From NCBI GenBank assembly GCA_015065965.1, contig SVPH01000027.1:1-34620 (forward strand): a DNA stretch of 34,620 bases, read 5' to 3'. The position numbers were made by a program, and so were the translations under genes. Below are positions 4,568-9,980 of this stretch, piece by piece. Numbering within the stretch: the stretch's first letter is position 1; every line of letters starts with the position of its first letter. The notes beneath the pieces were generated by a model. That model did not search any database. It was given only the letters and a program-made list of their open reading frames with translations, and was not told the DNA's origin. The DNA is from Oscillospiraceae bacterium. GTDB lineage: Bacteria; Bacillota; Clostridia; Oscillospirales; Acutalibacteraceae.

Positions 4568-4620
4568 AAAAATCACCGCAGCCTATGGATTATATAATCC
4601 ATGGTTACGGTGATTTTTTT
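4568..4620. terminator. Bidirectional terminator between GH51 and the ABC operon
   Basis: Long hairpin: AAATCACCG pairs with CGGTGATTT, with further pairing inside (ATGGATTATATAATCCAT is nearly palindromic). It is flanked by an A-run on the left and seven Ts on the right, so it works for both convergent genes. Confidence 0.85.
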
Positions 4621-6778
4621 ATATCTGTTTGTTTGTCAGTTTTGCCGTCTGGCGCTGAGCCATGACAAGTTTTGCATAAATGCCGTCCTGCATAAGCAGT
4701 TCTCTGTGAGTGCCGCTCTCTGCTATCCTGCCTTTTTCAATAACAATAAGTCTGTTCGCATTGCGTAAAGTTGCAAGCCTGTGGGCAATGGCAAATGTTG
4801 TTCTGCCCTTAACCAGCCTTGCAAGTGCCTCCTGAATGGCACTTTCCGTTTCAGGGTCAAGCGCACTTGTAGCCTCATCAAGAATAAGGATTTCAGGGTT
4901 ACGCAAAACCGCTCTGGCAATTGAAATTCTCTGCCGTTCACCGCCCGAAAGATTGTGGCCGTCCTCGCCGACAACCGTGTTGTAACCGTCAGGCAACTTC
5001 ATAATAAATTCGTGAGCGTTTGCGGCTTTTGCGGCGGCAATAACCTCGCCTGCCTCAGCATTGGAACGTGCGTAAGCGATATTATCGTAAACAGTACCGG
5101 CAAAAAGGAATGTTTCCTGAAATACAACGCCGATTTTCTCACGGTATTCACTCTGACTCATGTTTTTTATATTCTCTCCGCCGATGGTTATGCTGCCCTC
5201 ATCAACATCATAAAGGCGCATTATGAGGTTTATCAGCGTTGATTTGCCTGCGCCCGAGTGACCGACAAGACCTATCATTTCACCTTGTTTAACGGTAAAA
5301 CTTACATCTTTGAGCACTGGTTCATATGCTTTGTAACCGAAGCGGACATTATCAAAAACGATATCGCCGTTAAGTTTTGCAGGGACAGAATTTTCAGCAT
5401 CCTCACTGATTTGTTTCTCATCAAGAATTTCATAAATCTTGATAAGGCTTGTTGCAACCTCTCCCAACCTTCTCGGCAAAGTTGAAACCCAGCGCAGCGG
5501 TTGATAAATATAAGCAAGGAACAGCGTGAATTCAAGCAGTTCACCAAGGGATATTGTTCCCTCAAGCACCATTCTTCCGCCAAAATAGAGAACAAAGAAT
5601 TCGCCTATTCCCATAAAAAACGAAAGGAACGGGAATACCCTTGCCCAGAGTTGCTCGTTACTTTTGGATATTTCTGCAAGTCTGCGGCAAAGTGCATCAA
5701 ACTTTTTGATTTCCCTCTCTTCGCTGCCGAAAGTTTTAACAACCCTGATTCCCCTTACTATATCATGGAGAACGGAGTTTGAGCGTGAATCGCATCTCCA
5801 CTGCTTTTCATAACGCAGATGAATGAATTTCCAGAATCCGCGGATTGCAAGTATTACTGCAGGCACGGGAACAAACACAAGGAATGTGAGCAGCGGACTG
5901 ATGCTGATAAGAATTATCAGGATTGCCGTAAACATTATAAGTTGCTCAACTGCATACATACCTTGTTCGGTAACAAAACGTTTAACTACCTCGGTATCTC
6001 TTGTAACACGCTTCATAAGGTCGCCCGCCGTCTTTTTGGACATTGACGAAAGAGAAAGGCGCTGCACCTTATCATACATCATTATGCGCAGTTCGTTTGA
6101 CATTGCGGAACTGACTTTGTTTGTTCTGCGCTGACTGAAAATTTTAAGCACCTGACCCAGAACCTGCGTTAAACCGATAAGCACAACAATTGTCAGAACA
6201 CCTTTAACCGCCGCATCGCCCGTTACAGCAGGGTTATTGAAATAATCATCAACAAGTTTCGCATTGAGAACCGGCAAAAGCGCTGTTGATGCCGTTGCAA
6301 GAGTAAGCAGAATACCTGCCAGAGCAAGCGACGGCATATAACTTTTAAGCATGCCGACGGTGCGCCTGAAAAGATAACTTTTTTCAACGCAGAAAAGGCA
6401 CACATCCATACCTTTAATAAAATGTCTGCCGCACTTCTGGCAAACCCTGAAATCCTCACGGGAAATTTCAGTTTCTTCTCCGGTTTTTATATAATGGTTT
6501 ACAACCTTACAGAATTCGCCGATTTCGTTGACGCATGACATTGAGAATCTGCAAACGGGAATACTGCCTGCCATTTGGGAGTTTTCTTTTTCCGTAACAA
6601 GTTCAAGCATACCGCAGCCTACATATGTACGCTGCACGAGTTCTTCAACACCGTCAAGATTGCGGCAGAAAACGGTTTCTCCGTCAATAACGGCTCTTAT
6701 TTCGCCGCCTTCAAATATCAGTTCTCCCCTGCACAGTTCGCTTTTCTGCGTCAGGTCGAAAACCGCTTTTGTTTGCAT
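4619..6778 (-). CDS. ABC exporter (TMD-NBD fusion) with N-terminal zinc ribbon
   Basis: 719 aa. Residues 1-105 are a small unrecognised domain. Residues about 113-130 hold a zinc ribbon (CQKCG ... CLFC), followed by a six-helix type-I exporter domain (about 140-440) and a complete nucleotide-binding domain: Walker A GHSGAGKST near 506-514, Q-loop Q554, signature LSGGE near 610-614, Walker B ILILDE with E635, H-loop H666. It probably works as a heterodimer with the ABC protein at 7320-9692. The longest frame starts at a GTG at 6787, but that GTG is inside the ribosome site AGAGGTGAT; the ATG at 6778, nine bases on, is correctly spaced. It is the last gene of the ABC-DUF1854-ABC unit. Substrate unknown; DUF1854-linked ABC pairs have been associated with cyanophycin metabolism in other bacteria, but no cyanophycin gene is seen here. 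Confidence 0.9.
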   Translation of the reverse strand: MQTKAVFDLTQKSELCRGELIFEGGEIRAVIDGETVFCRNLDGVEELVQRTYVGCGMLELVTEKENSQMAGSIPVCRFSMSCVNEIGEFCKVVNHYIKTGEETEISREDFRVCQKCGRHFIKGMDVCLFCVEKSYLFRRTVGMLKSYMPSLALAGILLTLATASTALLPVLNAKLVDDYFNNPAVTGDAAVKGVLTIVVLIGLTQVLGQVLKIFSQRRTNKVSSAMSNELRIMMYDKVQRLSLSSMSKKTAGDLMKRVTRDTEVVKRFVTEQGMYAVEQLIMFTAILIILISISPLLTFLVFVPVPAVILAIRGFWKFIHLRYEKQWRCDSRSNSVLHDIVRGIRVVKTFGSEEREIKKFDALCRRLAEISKSNEQLWARVFPFLSFFMGIGEFFVLYFGGRMVLEGTISLGELLEFTLFLAYIYQPLRWVSTLPRRLGEVATSLIKIYEILDEKQISEDAENSVPAKLNGDIVFDNVRFGYKAYEPVLKDVSFTVKQGEMIGLVGHSGAGKSTLINLIMRLYDVDEGSITIGGENIKNMSQSEYREKIGVVFQETFLFAGTVYDNIAYARSNAEAGEVIAAAKAANAHEFIMKLPDGYNTVVGEDGHNLSGGERQRISIARAVLRNPEILILDEATSALDPETESAIQEALARLVKGRTTFAIAHRLATLRNANRLIVIEKGRIAESGTHRELLMQDGIYAKLVMAQRQTAKLTNKQI

Positions 6779-6808
6779 AATTATCACCTCTTTCCAAAAA
6801 TGAAGAGA

Positions 6809-7333
6809 TTAATACAGATAAGGTTCGAGTTTACGGCGGCTCTTTGACGGAATTGCCTCAAAATCAAGTATTCTGAAGCGGTTACCGTCAATATCAATAA
6901 GGTCAATCGCTTTACCGTGCTGACGGATACTTTTTGAAATATCCCTGACCGCAAAAGACTTTTTAAAATCGCCTATCATAACATCGAAGTAAAAATGTCC
7001 CATTTTTTCTTTGATTCCTTCAATTTTGGTGATTACGGGGCAGTAGTAGCGCTGATCAAGTTCTTCATTCATCAAAGCCTGCTGCTCTGACGGGAAATCC
7101 GCCATATGCTCAACTATACCAAGTTCGTTTTTTTCTATATCCGAAATGCAGATATAATCCGACGGAAAATTTAGGGGAAGTGATCGGGTAAGTATTACCC
7201 TTTTATACTCTTTGCCTTTGATTTCTGCAGCAAGAAAACCGTTTTCGTTCTTTGAAAAAACGCAGTTCTCAGGGCTGACATATTCCGTTCTGAGCGTTTC
7301 GGGTGAAATAGTATTAGCATTATTTATGTTCAT
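6809..7333 (-). CDS. DUF1854 family protein
   Basis: 174 aa, soluble, no signal peptide or membrane helix. I recognise it as DUF1854 from the segment KRVILTRSLPLNFPSDYICI, the stretch FYFDVMIGDFKKSFAVRD, and the C-terminal IDIDGNRFRILDFEAIP. The family has no established biochemical function and typically sits beside paired ABC exporters, as here, which points to an accessory or regulatory role for the transporter. The start ATG at 7333 has GAGGAGG just upstream, and the first 14 bases overlap the end of the upstream ABC gene, so the two are translationally linked. A 30-nt gap separates its stop from the start of the second ABC gene. Confidence 0.85.
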   Translation of the reverse strand: MNINNANTISPETLRTEYVSPENCVFSKNENGFLAAEIKGKEYKRVILTRSLPLNFPSDYICISDIEKNELGIVEHMADFPSEQQALMNEELDQRYYCPVITKIEGIKEKMGHFYFDVMIGDFKKSFAVRDISKSIRQHGKAIDLIDIDGNRFRILDFEAIPSKSRRKLEPYLY

Positions 7334-9692
7334 GTTCGTCCTCCTCAGGCATTTCTCCGCCTATTCCCACGCCAATGCCGATAGTTTTAAGCGCTTCGGA
7401 CTGGATTTTATATTGCTTATAGAATTCGCCTTTCTGTTTAATAAGATCTGAAAATGTACCGTATTCAATGATTTTGCCGTCATCAATAACCGCAAGATAA
7501 TCTGCATCCCTCAAAGTGGAAAGGCGGTGGGCAATTGCAATAGTTGTTCTGCCCTCTTTAAGTTGAGTGAGCGAATACTGAATATTGCGCTCTGTTTCGG
7601 TATCCATGGCAGCAGTTGCCTCATCAAGAATAAGAATTTTAGGATTCTGAATAATCGTTCTTGCGATTGAAATACGCTGCCTTTCACCACCCGAAAGTTT
7701 TTGACCGCCTGCGCCGACCCTTGTTTCGTATGCATCAGGCAATTTCATGATAAAATCATGGGCAGATGCTGCTTTTGCCGCCGCAATAACCTCATCCATT
7801 GTTGCGTCGGGTTTTGCATAACGGATATTATCGGCAATCGAACCGATAAAGAGGTAAATATCCTGAGATACCAGACCGATATTACGGCGAAGTTCAGCAA
7901 GTTTTAAATCACGCACATCAATGCCGTCGATTTTAACGCAGCCTTCTTTTGCATCGTAAAGCCTCGCAATAAGGTTGGCAATGGTTGTTTTGCCTGCACC
8001 TGTTTTGCCGACTATGCCAAGCATATCGCCTGCTTTGACATTAAGGCTGAGTTTTTTTATAACGGGTCTTGCAGGCTCATATTCAAATTCAAGTTCGTTA
8101 ATCTCAATATCGCCCTTAAGATCATCAAAACTTACGGCATTTTCTTTCTCTGTTATATCCGGCTGTGCATCGCACACTTCAAAAACACGCTGTGCTGAAT
8201 CGGCGCACCTTGCCCACCAATTTGAAACCCATGAGAGAAAGTCAAACGGGCCTCTGAGCATTTCAAGGTAAACAATGTAACTGAGAAGTGTGCCTGTTGA
8301 AAGTTCACCCTTTGCAACCATAACACCGCCTGCGCCAAGAACAACGGTTGAAAGCCCAAGAACAAAAATTTCAAGAATCGGGAAAAGAGTTGCTTCCGTA
8401 AGCGAAAGTTTGAGTTCCGCCTTCATATGCTCTCCGCTGAGTTTTTCAAAGCGGTCATATTCATCATTTTCCTTTGAGAATGCCTTGATAACACGCTGAC
8501 CGTTGATGTTGTCGCTGACCATAGCGGAAACCTTTGCGTTATAAAGCCATGCTCTGTGATGAAGAGAACGGAAAAGTTTATCGCCCAGCACAAGGAAAAC
8601 AATTAATATAGGCATTGCCGCCAATGTTATAAGCGAAAGTTTCCAACTCATCACAAACATTATAACTACTACACCGATAACGGTTGCAATATCAATAACA
8701 AGTGCAGGCAAGCCGTCAACAAAGAACCAATAAATGTTATTTGCATCGCGGATAACACGCTCCATGAGAGAACCTGTCTGCTTTGATGAATAGAAATTGA
8801 CGGAAAGTCTTTGCATAGCATTGAATATTTTAACCTTTATGTCATAGATAACATCAGGCATTATTCCGCCCGTTATATATTGCTGAGTAACGGTAAGAAT
8901 TGTGTTAAGGAATCTTATGCCGAATATTGAAAGCACAAGAACACCAAGTGCCTTGATAAGTTCGGCAACGGCAAGCCCATCGGGGTTTGCAAGCACATCG
9001 TCAAAAAGTGCGCGGGTGCTTATCTGCGGAATAAAAACCGTAACGGCTGAACCGAGAAGCATTATTGCAATAATTGCGACAATCTGCGGAATATAGCCGC
9101 CGAAAAATTTGAAAAGACGGATTGCCGTTGAAGATTTTTTGTTGCATTTAGGGCAAAAATCCTTACCCTGTGGGCACGGTTTGCCGCATTTTTTGCATTT
9201 CTTCTCTTCGGGTTCGGCTGAAGCAGGTATCTCTGCTTCGCCTGTATTCTTGTAAGAATTAAACGCTCTTATCAAATTTTCAATCTGAGCGATTTTACCT
9301 ATTGAAAAACGCACAAGGCTTATCTGCTCACCGTCTTTTTTCAATATAAGCCTGCCCGTTGAAACATATCGCTCCGCTTCAAGGGAGTCAATATCTTCCA
9401 TAGGTATGCTTTGAATCTCGCTCACCGTATATTTAGGCTCGGGTATGCGCTTTCCGCTTTTACGCTTTGTTTTTACGATTTCTTCATCGCCCAAAGCGAT
9501 GTAAAAACCTTTATCGTCAAAACTGAGCCACGCAGAGCAGTAGCATGCATCATTATCCATATCACCCGTGCAGCAGTAAATCAGATTTTCTGTTGCAAGC
9601 CCTGCTTCTTCAAGCACCCTGAGCAAAGGTTTCGGGAACTTGCCTTTTTCGGCCTTTGGGGGCTTGGAAAGTTTATCCTTTTTCTTTCCCAT
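7320..9692 (-). CDS. ABC exporter (TMD-NBD fusion) with N-terminal domain and zinc ribbon
   Basis: 790 aa, longer than the usual 580-600 aa half-transporter because of about 190 extra N-terminal residues. Residues 1-20 are Lys-rich. Residues about 35-145 form a beta-rich domain (CCTGDMDNDACYCSAWLSF ... RLILKKDGEQISLVRF) that could be PH-like. A zinc ribbon follows (C166, C169, C180, C183). Membrane helices span about 200-480. The ATPase domain is intact: Walker A GKTGAGKTT near 562-570, LSGGE 666-670, ILILDE 686-691. It is the first structural gene of the exporter operon; ATG 9692 is preceded by GAGGTG at good spacing. About 100 nt upstream is the terminator of the leader ORF, so expression probably depends on read-through or a weak local promoter. 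Partner: the ABC protein at 4619-6778. Confidence 0.9.
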   Translation of the reverse strand: MGKKKDKLSKPPKAEKGKFPKPLLRVLEEAGLATENLIYCCTGDMDNDACYCSAWLSFDDKGFYIALGDEEIVKTKRKSGKRIPEPKYTVSEIQSIPMEDIDSLEAERYVSTGRLILKKDGEQISLVRFSIGKIAQIENLIRAFNSYKNTGEAEIPASAEPEEKKCKKCGKPCPQGKDFCPKCNKKSSTAIRLFKFFGGYIPQIVAIIAIMLLGSAVTVFIPQISTRALFDDVLANPDGLAVAELIKALGVLVLSIFGIRFLNTILTVTQQYITGGIMPDVIYDIKVKIFNAMQRLSVNFYSSKQTGSLMERVIRDANNIYWFFVDGLPALVIDIATVIGVVVIMFVMSWKLSLITLAAMPILIVFLVLGDKLFRSLHHRAWLYNAKVSAMVSDNINGQRVIKAFSKENDEYDRFEKLSGEHMKAELKLSLTEATLFPILEIFVLGLSTVVLGAGGVMVAKGELSTGTLLSYIVYLEMLRGPFDFLSWVSNWWARCADSAQRVFEVCDAQPDITEKENAVSFDDLKGDIEINELEFEYEPARPVIKKLSLNVKAGDMLGIVGKTGAGKTTIANLIARLYDAKEGCVKIDGIDVRDLKLAELRRNIGLVSQDIYLFIGSIADNIRYAKPDATMDEVIAAAKAASAHDFIMKLPDAYETRVGAGGQKLSGGERQRISIARTIIQNPKILILDEATAAMDTETERNIQYSLTQLKEGRTTIAIAHRLSTLRDADYLAVIDDGKIIEYGTFSDLIKQKGEFYKQYKIQSEALKTIGIGVGIGGEMPEEDEHEHK

Positions 9693-9745
9693 AGGTTCAC
9701 CACCTCAAATGAAATTCTATACCATAAATCTGTAAATTAACAGTC

Positions 9746-9774
9746 TTGTAATACAGGAAAATTTATGCTATAAT
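9746..9774 (+). promoter_or_regulatory. Plus-strand promoter facing into the attenuator leader
   Basis: TTGTAA, 17 nt, TATAAT preceded by TGC (extended -10). The same -35, spacing and -10 occur in front of obg. No plus-strand gene follows; the transcript would start near 9781 and meet the hairpin at 9796-9828 followed by a T-run, giving an RNA of about 57 nt antisense to the leader terminator. It may be fortuitous, because its -10 is A/T-rich on both strands. Confidence 0.4.
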
Positions 9775-9791
9775 ATGTATGTAAAAAGCGC

Positions 9792-9828
9792 AAAAAAACA
9801 GCACCTTCGCCTGCCGAAAGTGCTGTTT
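9792..9828 (-). terminator. Strong terminator / attenuator hairpin before the ABC operon
   Basis: Minus-strand stem AAACAGCACTTTCG / CGAAGGTGCTGTTT (14 positions, one mismatch), 5-nt loop, then seven Ts. It lies between the 21-codon leader ORF and the ABC gene at 9692, so it would stop transcripts from the leader promoter and from the ketopantoate reductase gene unless overridden. The plus-strand tail (GTGTTTTTTATA) could also terminate in that direction. Confidence 0.85.
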
Positions 9829-9884
9829 GTGTTTTTTATACACAAAAACTCACAGAGATATGCCGAGCGGGCACAACACTTCCG
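9815..9884 (-). promoter_or_regulatory. Putative antiterminator pairing inside the leader
   Basis: Leader-ORF bases 9884 to 9873 (minus strand CGGAAGTGTTGT) can form 12 consecutive pairs, two of them G-U, with bases 9826 to 9815 (ACAGCACTTTCG), which are the 5' arm of the terminator. The two structures are mutually exclusive, the layout expected for transcription attenuation. Seen directly in sequence; the regulation itself is inference. Confidence 0.55.
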
Positions 9885-9915
9885 TTTTAAACAAACTGTT
9901 CATTCTCATTGTCAT
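9850..9915 (-). CDS. 21-aa leader peptide or microprotein
   Basis: Tiny ORF, 21 codons plus TGA, beginning MTMRMNSLFK, continuing TEVLCPLG and ending ISL. Support for translation is good: AAGGAGG lies 8 nt before the ATG at 9915, one of the best ribosome sites in the window. A near-consensus promoter ends about 29 nt upstream of that, and a strong terminator follows the stop by about 20 nt. It has one cysteine, no signal peptide, and I know no family for it. Because codons 11-15 overlap the antiterminator segment, I favour a regulatory leader peptide for the ABC/DUF1854 operon, comparable in arrangement to the BmrB leader before bmrCD in Bacillus subtilis. An independent microprotein gene is the alternative. 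ATGs at 9909 and 9903 are less well spaced. Confidence 0.6.
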   Translation of the reverse strand: MTMRMNSLFKTEVLCPLGISL

Positions 9916-9950
9916 CGTGTCCGCCTCCTTTCTGTGATATCGTTTTATTC

Positions 9951-9980
9951 AGTATAACCCTATGTTATTTTGTTTGTCAA
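9951..9980 (-). promoter_or_regulatory. Promoter of the leader transcript
   Basis: Minus-strand TTGACA, 18 nt, TATACT, starting 13 nt after the stop of the ketopantoate reductase gene. The transcript would begin near 9944 and reach the leader ORF after about 29 nt. Confidence 0.75.

Follow-up and report, generated by a model that had tools for sequence, protein, structure and literature searches.

The stretch of DNA analysed here, which we call the window (34,620 nucleotides, contig SVPH01000027.1 of an Oscillospiraceae bacterium), contains on its minus strand a short leader followed by an ABC exporter operon. The features of this locus are the following:

9951..9980, minus strand: promoter TTGACA-N18-TATACT, matching 11/12 consensus positions
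9850..9915, minus strand: leader ORF of 21 codons plus a stop, MTMRMNSLFKTEVLCPLGISL, with the SD AAGGAGG at 9924-9930
9913..9924, minus strand: segment 1, from the SD end through the start codon; its partner is segment 2 (anti-antiterminator)
9867..9878, minus strand: segment 2, the 3′ end of the ORF; its partner is the SD/start codon
9873..9884, minus strand: antiterminator segment inside the ORF; its partner is the terminator 5′ arm (9815-9826)
9796..9828, minus strand: intrinsic terminator hairpin, 5′ arm 9815-9826, -20.3 kcal/mol, T run to 9792
7320..9692, minus strand: ABC exporter half of 790 aa (ABC_membrane, ABC_tran)
6809..7333, minus strand: DUF1854 protein of 174 aa, overlapping the preceding ORF
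4619..6787, minus strand: second ABC exporter half, of 722 aa

An earlier examination of these letters, the sequence-only reading, had described a near-consensus promoter, a 21-codon ORF with its SD and a terminator stem with its T run, and all three lie where it placed them. The 12-pair match that it proposed between the ORF and the terminator arm is exact (9884-9873 with 9826-9815, 12/12), and the two exporter halves are present downstream, with the DUF1854 gene between them (ABC - DUF1854 - ABC). It had also named a separate strong promoter below the terminator as an argument against attenuation; at the level of sequence, a scan of the window for promoter-like sites on the minus strand (9/12 or more) found none between the terminator and the ABC gene. 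On the plus strand, a promoter-like TTGTAA-N17-TATAAT with a TG before the second hexamer (9746-9774, 10/12) sits in this interval and is directed into the leader; chance alone would yield 1.8 such sites in the region scanned. The promoter region of the window also matches a promoter at positions 1501-1538 of L005, upstream of a different leader that appears T-box-like by eye.

The stretch 9790-9945 folds better than 200/200 of its shuffles (z = -3.49). The duplex between the ORF and the terminator arm (9884-9873/9826-9815) has an energy of -18.0 kcal/mol that is reached by 4.5% of 200 ORF shuffles; this is modestly above chance in the window sequence alone, and the case for the antiterminator thus rests on conservation. 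In the unconstrained fold, the SD/start region (9924-9913) pairs with the ORF end (9878-9867) at 11/12 positions, with one A.C mismatch, a helix that in the window alone is not significant (shuffle p 0.18). This pairing is the part absent from the sequence-only reading, and in it the leader's SD and start codon serve as the anti-antiterminator. Three pairings compete in the leader, namely the anti-antiterminator, the antiterminator and the terminator. As segment 2 and the antiterminator segment share 6 nt, the two pairings in which they engage are mutually exclusive.

A covariance model, R1, was built from 16 leaders and run against whole genomes, largely drafts, with stricter filters that lose weak matches. 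R1 includes the SD helix, so that its matches lean towards this helix; the antiterminator pairing between the terminator arm and the ORF lies outside the model. Matches were obtained in 23/45 genomes of the genus at E<=0.01 (20 of these at E<=1.5e-5), in 49/300 genomes of the family at E<=0.001, counting 5 of the source genus, and in 19/245 genomes of the order at E<=0.001, counting the source genome and 4 of its family. At E<=1e-4, 6/291 genomes of the class, counting the source genome, and 1/299 genomes of the phylum, the source genome only, carry a match; since the 298 other genomes of the phylum sample are without one, false positives are bounded at this threshold. The leader matches concentrate in one order. 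The source genome has three leader copies, that of the window and those at L113 and L114, which precede a methyltransferase and a 603-aa ABC protein, respectively; the highest count seen in any genome is five (G244). Leader L011 found no match among 72,556 plasmid records. Among viral contigs, one exact copy of the AVLS-type SD/start motif was seen (L196, 6313-6332, minus strand).

From the leader set we set aside L138-L141 and L183 (weak or false) and L185 (identical in sequence to L124); the set also leaves out L186-L188 and the family matches without a locus, and five class matches were read but kept outside the tests. At L122 (570-705), a leader whose ORF has lost its end and is 66 codons long stands before a 735-aa protein with a start that is glycosidase-like by eye; it is perhaps a decaying copy.

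The leader is not exporter-specific and precedes unrelated genes in the genus, the family and the order. From the 58 callable first genes we selected 40, with a view to variety, and scanned their proteins with Pfam. Half of them (20/40, L176 by its GNAT_C domain only) are GNAT-type acyltransferases, a share that is no unbiased rate because of the way in which the proteins were picked. ABC transporters account for 4/40 (L114, L166, L167 and L181, with L114 and L166 recognised by the ATPase domain only); the other scanned first genes comprise 3 LytTR proteins, 2 histidine phosphatases, 7 single cases and 4 proteins without a family. NCBIfam, at E 1e-20 and for 10 downstream proteins, returned no named resistance family, and the assignment of L142 and L164 as 'DNA topology modulation protein' fell below the cut-off. 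In 51/58 related loci, the first-gene start (as called, the earliest possible) lies at most 60 nt from the terminator, with a median of 21, so that polymerase would, as a rule, have to cross the terminator in order to transcribe the gene. Upstream, a promoter-like site of at least 9/12 precedes 60/63 other leaders (95%) versus 20% of control windows.

A protein search gave 31 loci related to the exporter operon, and the start region was read in 27 of them. By reading, the leader is present ahead of orthologous exporters in 9/27 loci (L022, L024-L029, L044 and L048); these nine leaders trained the covariance model and their model scores are therefore not independent. A tenth locus, L045, has the same layout with a divergent sequence, as judged by eye and by one duplex calculation (-19.0 kcal/mol), and its leader was missed by the covariance model at E<=1. 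The remaining 17/27 loci are without the leader, among them L023, whose protein is 84% identical. The named exporter loci come from metagenome-assembled Clostridia, many from ruminant guts. The distance from the terminator T run to the ABC start is about 100 nt in the window (9692-9791) versus about 27-29 nt in L022 and L025. A second DUF1854 gene of the source genome resides on another contig (L074, G000:C56), where the model search found no leader. The cyanophycin-associated ABC/DUF1854 families (NF052233/NF052234) were rejected, with scores of 532.8 and 522 against a cut-off of 880, and of 58.4 against 150; the open-access literature searched contained no mention of DUF1854.

Under the filters set, a leader ORF with an SD and an intrinsic terminator were located in 72/76 pooled leaders, the pairing tests omitting L122, L153, L154 and L168, in which the finder called no terminator or the ORF exceeded the length allowed. 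The duplex tests were performed on 27 representatives of less than 75% identity, 8 of them in the R1 training set, by an alignment-free comparison of each leader's own duplex energy with cross-paired and shuffled duplexes. For the SD/start:ORF-end helix, the energies were -17.8 for own, -14.2 for cross-paired and -11.0 for shuffled partners, and 24/27 leaders beat their mean cross-pairing. For the terminator arm:ORF pairing, they were -15.8, -11.1 and -10.8, respectively, with 26/27 beating the mean cross-pairing; lying outside the search model, this pairing provides the cleaner test of the two. Against shuffles at 0.05, the antiterminator passes in 15/27 leaders and misses in 12, and the SD helix misses in 5/27. 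The sequence-only reading had staked its hypothesis on conservation in relatives, and indeed these preserve the ORF as well as the two alternative pairings.

Compensatory changes were counted in two alignments. In A1 (16 leaders), 92.7% of the cells are paired and 38 are double-change cells versus 14.0 in shuffles; in A4 (37 leaders, fitted to structure), 95.1% are paired, with 111 double-change cells versus 29.3. These column counts also exceed those of slid-partner controls in both alignments. The double changes fall mainly in the terminator, the SD/start helix holding 7/38 in A1 and 14/111 in A4, and the number of A4 pairs with a double change, 14, is matched by 33/500 shuffles. Being out of register across subgroups, the antiterminator was tested by own-versus-cross energies and not by column counts. 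MAFFT alignments A2 and A3, in which segments were misplaced, were unused, and L048, partly misaligned in A1, was retained. By eye, replacements can be followed in single leaders: GCGGACAAAAUG with CGUUUUGUCUGC (L143), GCAGGCAAAAU with AUUUUGCCUGC (L191) and GAGGCGAUU with AAUCGCCUC (L184) and, for the ORF against the terminator loop and arm, CUGAUAAAAUC/GGUUUUAUCAG (L160) versus UUGAUAAAAUC/GGUUUUAUCAA (L177). At least one start-codon base is paired in 65/72 leaders. According to the best duplexes, the ORF-end motif occupies three reading frames (17/8/2 of the 27 representatives), which argues that the RNA is kept and not the peptide; the latter seems to be a by-product.

We also modelled the effect of a ribosome on the leader. 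The nascent RNA was folded to the end of the terminator 5′ arm, by equilibrium and not kinetic folding, with an assumed ribosome footprint that extends 15 nt upstream and 16 nt downstream of the first P-site base. Over the 27 leaders, the mean probability of the antiterminator is 0.18 with no ribosome, 0.73 with a ribosome at codon 1 and 0.71 at codon 3; it is 0.32 at codon 5 and 0.16 at codon 8. In the window, folding with and without a footprint, as the sequence-only reading had suggested, gives 0.00 for the free RNA and 0.63, 0.80, 0.80 and 0.00 for codons 1, 3, 5 and 8. The stall range of codons 1-10 that it proposed is corrected by the model to codons 1-5. Start-codon arrest raises the probability by 0.55 versus 0.14 in shuffled leader interiors; tested against the shuffles, this rise has a p at or below 0.05 in 18/27 leaders and misses that level in 9/27, the window standing at 0.075. 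Exceptions are L166 (0.03) and L181 (0.20), which are low at codon 3, and L136 (0.72) and L184 (0.58), which are high with no ribosome. The value of zero at the stop codon follows from the imposed rule that no pair may span the ribosome and is no result; with the assumed footprint, a terminating ribosome leaves the antiterminator segment uncovered.

The computed anatomy, conservation, alternative pairings and modelled switching point to a leader that is probably a ribosome-mediated transcription attenuator and responds to the arrest of ribosomes at the start or close to it. In the mechanism that we propose, segment 1 (SD/start) would pair with segment 2 (ORF 3′ end), the antiterminator would be blocked and the terminator would end transcription. 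A freely translating ribosome would open segment 1 only briefly and, on finishing, would have segment 2 on one side and the terminator arm on the other, so that termination of transcription would presumably still win after normal translation. Arrest at the start, or before the ribosome has moved beyond the first ~5 codons, would instead keep segment 1 covered and free the ORF end, which could pair with the terminator 5′ arm and let transcription continue into the exporter operon. Translation arrest near the start codon, as caused by some ribosome inhibitors, would be the likely signal. We infer that translation of the leader and read-through take place in vivo, and that an inducer and a benefit to the cell would go with them. 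At the sequence level, the architecture first proposed withstands both arguments raised against it, loss of conservation and a separate promoter, with its stall range, its missing pairing and its exporter scope revised.

Stalling might alternatively need a specific nascent peptide, as in Erm- or Cat-type sensors, the arrest motif being the common C-terminal AVLS/VLCP. AVLS-like C-termini are common among the leaders read and codon 2 encodes Thr in 52/72 leaders. Ala/Ser/Thr contexts favour chloramphenicol/linezolid arrest. However, each of the three frames is used to read the motif, giving VLCP, VPFCL or CRFAC instead of AVLS, which does not correspond to a conserved arrest peptide, and in most modelled leaders the antiterminator segment is hidden when the ribosome stands at codon 8; we consider this explanation improbable. 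A classical amino-acid attenuator, in which scarcity of one charged tRNA would stall the ribosome early, appears more doubtful still, indeed very unlikely. Codons 2-8 are suitably placed for it, and Thr, Lys, Asn, Ile and Met are frequent there; yet every residue makes up at most 12% of codons 2-9 in the 27 representatives, no run of cognate codons is present in these positions, and the 40 scanned downstream genes are not biosynthesis genes of one amino acid.

The leader could also be constitutive, the sole role of the terminator being to set a low basal level and that of the SD:ORF-end hairpin to limit translation of the small ORF. That exporter loci dispense with the leader in 17/27 cases would agree with such a role, which nonetheless leaves unexplained both the ORF:terminator-arm pairing, beating cross-pairing in 26/27 leaders, and the switch observed in silico; we regard it as improbable to the same degree as the specific peptide.

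The opening of a leader by an arrested ribosome, as in our preferred reading, has several published precedents. For bmrCD of Bacillus subtilis, lincomycin induction requires leader translation, and translation-dependent read-through occurs with a ribosome-targeting drug (PMC4191407). As here, a leader ORF with alternative stem-loops precedes a two-gene ABC exporter; however, bmrB has 53 residues and its terminator lies within the coding region, as described there (PMC4191407), whereas the present ORF has 21 codons and its terminator (9828-9796) is past the stop at 9850, so that it is not a BmrB-type leader. For toiL, the uORF of topAI in Escherichia coli, the published study reports tetracycline arrest at the start codon by ribosome profiling, opening of a repressive hairpin by this arrest, and strong induction of a uORF-controlled reporter by retapamulin (PMC12121999). 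The likeness is the opening of a repressive structure by arrest at a uORF start codon, here modelled only; toiL differs in acting on translation and Rho-dependent termination, in contrast to the intrinsic terminator found here (PMC12121999). By analogy with the toiL and bmrCD precedents, inhibitors that arrest ribosomes at or just after the start are likely inducers; translation inhibitors would be the signal and the exporter may be the useful output.

A further related design is that of vmlR in B. subtilis, where an anti-antiterminator, an antiterminator and a terminator compete and uORF arrest frees the antiterminator (PMC9226507). The general kind, a uORF with these three elements, is thus known already. 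The vmlR uORF is the tripeptide Met-Ile-Asn with a single-stranded SD (PMC9226507), unlike the present leader, which has 21 codons and an SD/start that is predicted to be paired as the anti-antiterminator strand and, moreover, stands before many unrelated genes; a vmlR-type leader was thus rejected. A survey reports that attenuators of related sequence occur at more than one gene and that some can 'hop' from gene to gene, with ABC transporters at the top of the candidate count (PMC2965389); acetyltransferases are absent from its main text, and an SD:ORF-end pairing is absent from its passages on these attenuators. Rfam 15 contains no family for the leader element, at gathering and permissive thresholds for the window and at gathering for 7 other loci; the patAB leader scored 17.2 bits versus 92 needed. 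The main texts of the open-access literature searched held no recognisable description of the element. What sets it apart from vmlR is the use of the leader's own SD/start codon as the anti-antiterminator strand, in a design that recurs before many unrelated genes.

There is, in our estimate, an even chance that a single conserved leader design, with its own SD and start codon as the anti-antiterminator, has been reused within one Clostridia order in front of genes from roughly ten families that are unrelated to each other, among them GNAT acetyltransferases, ABC transporters, P-loop proteins and LytTR systems. With up to five copies per genome, it would form a dispersed regulon that reports arrested translation initiation directly via RNA and without a protein regulator. 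If this is true, the design would be a compact one, the start codon of the leader being the site at which arrest is sensed, and the leader would serve as a genomic marker of translation-inhibitor-induced genes, among them GNATs of uncharacterised substrate. These bacteria would then possess an alarm for blocked ribosomes that consists of RNA alone and is connected to a set of enzymes and transporters, most of them uncharacterised.
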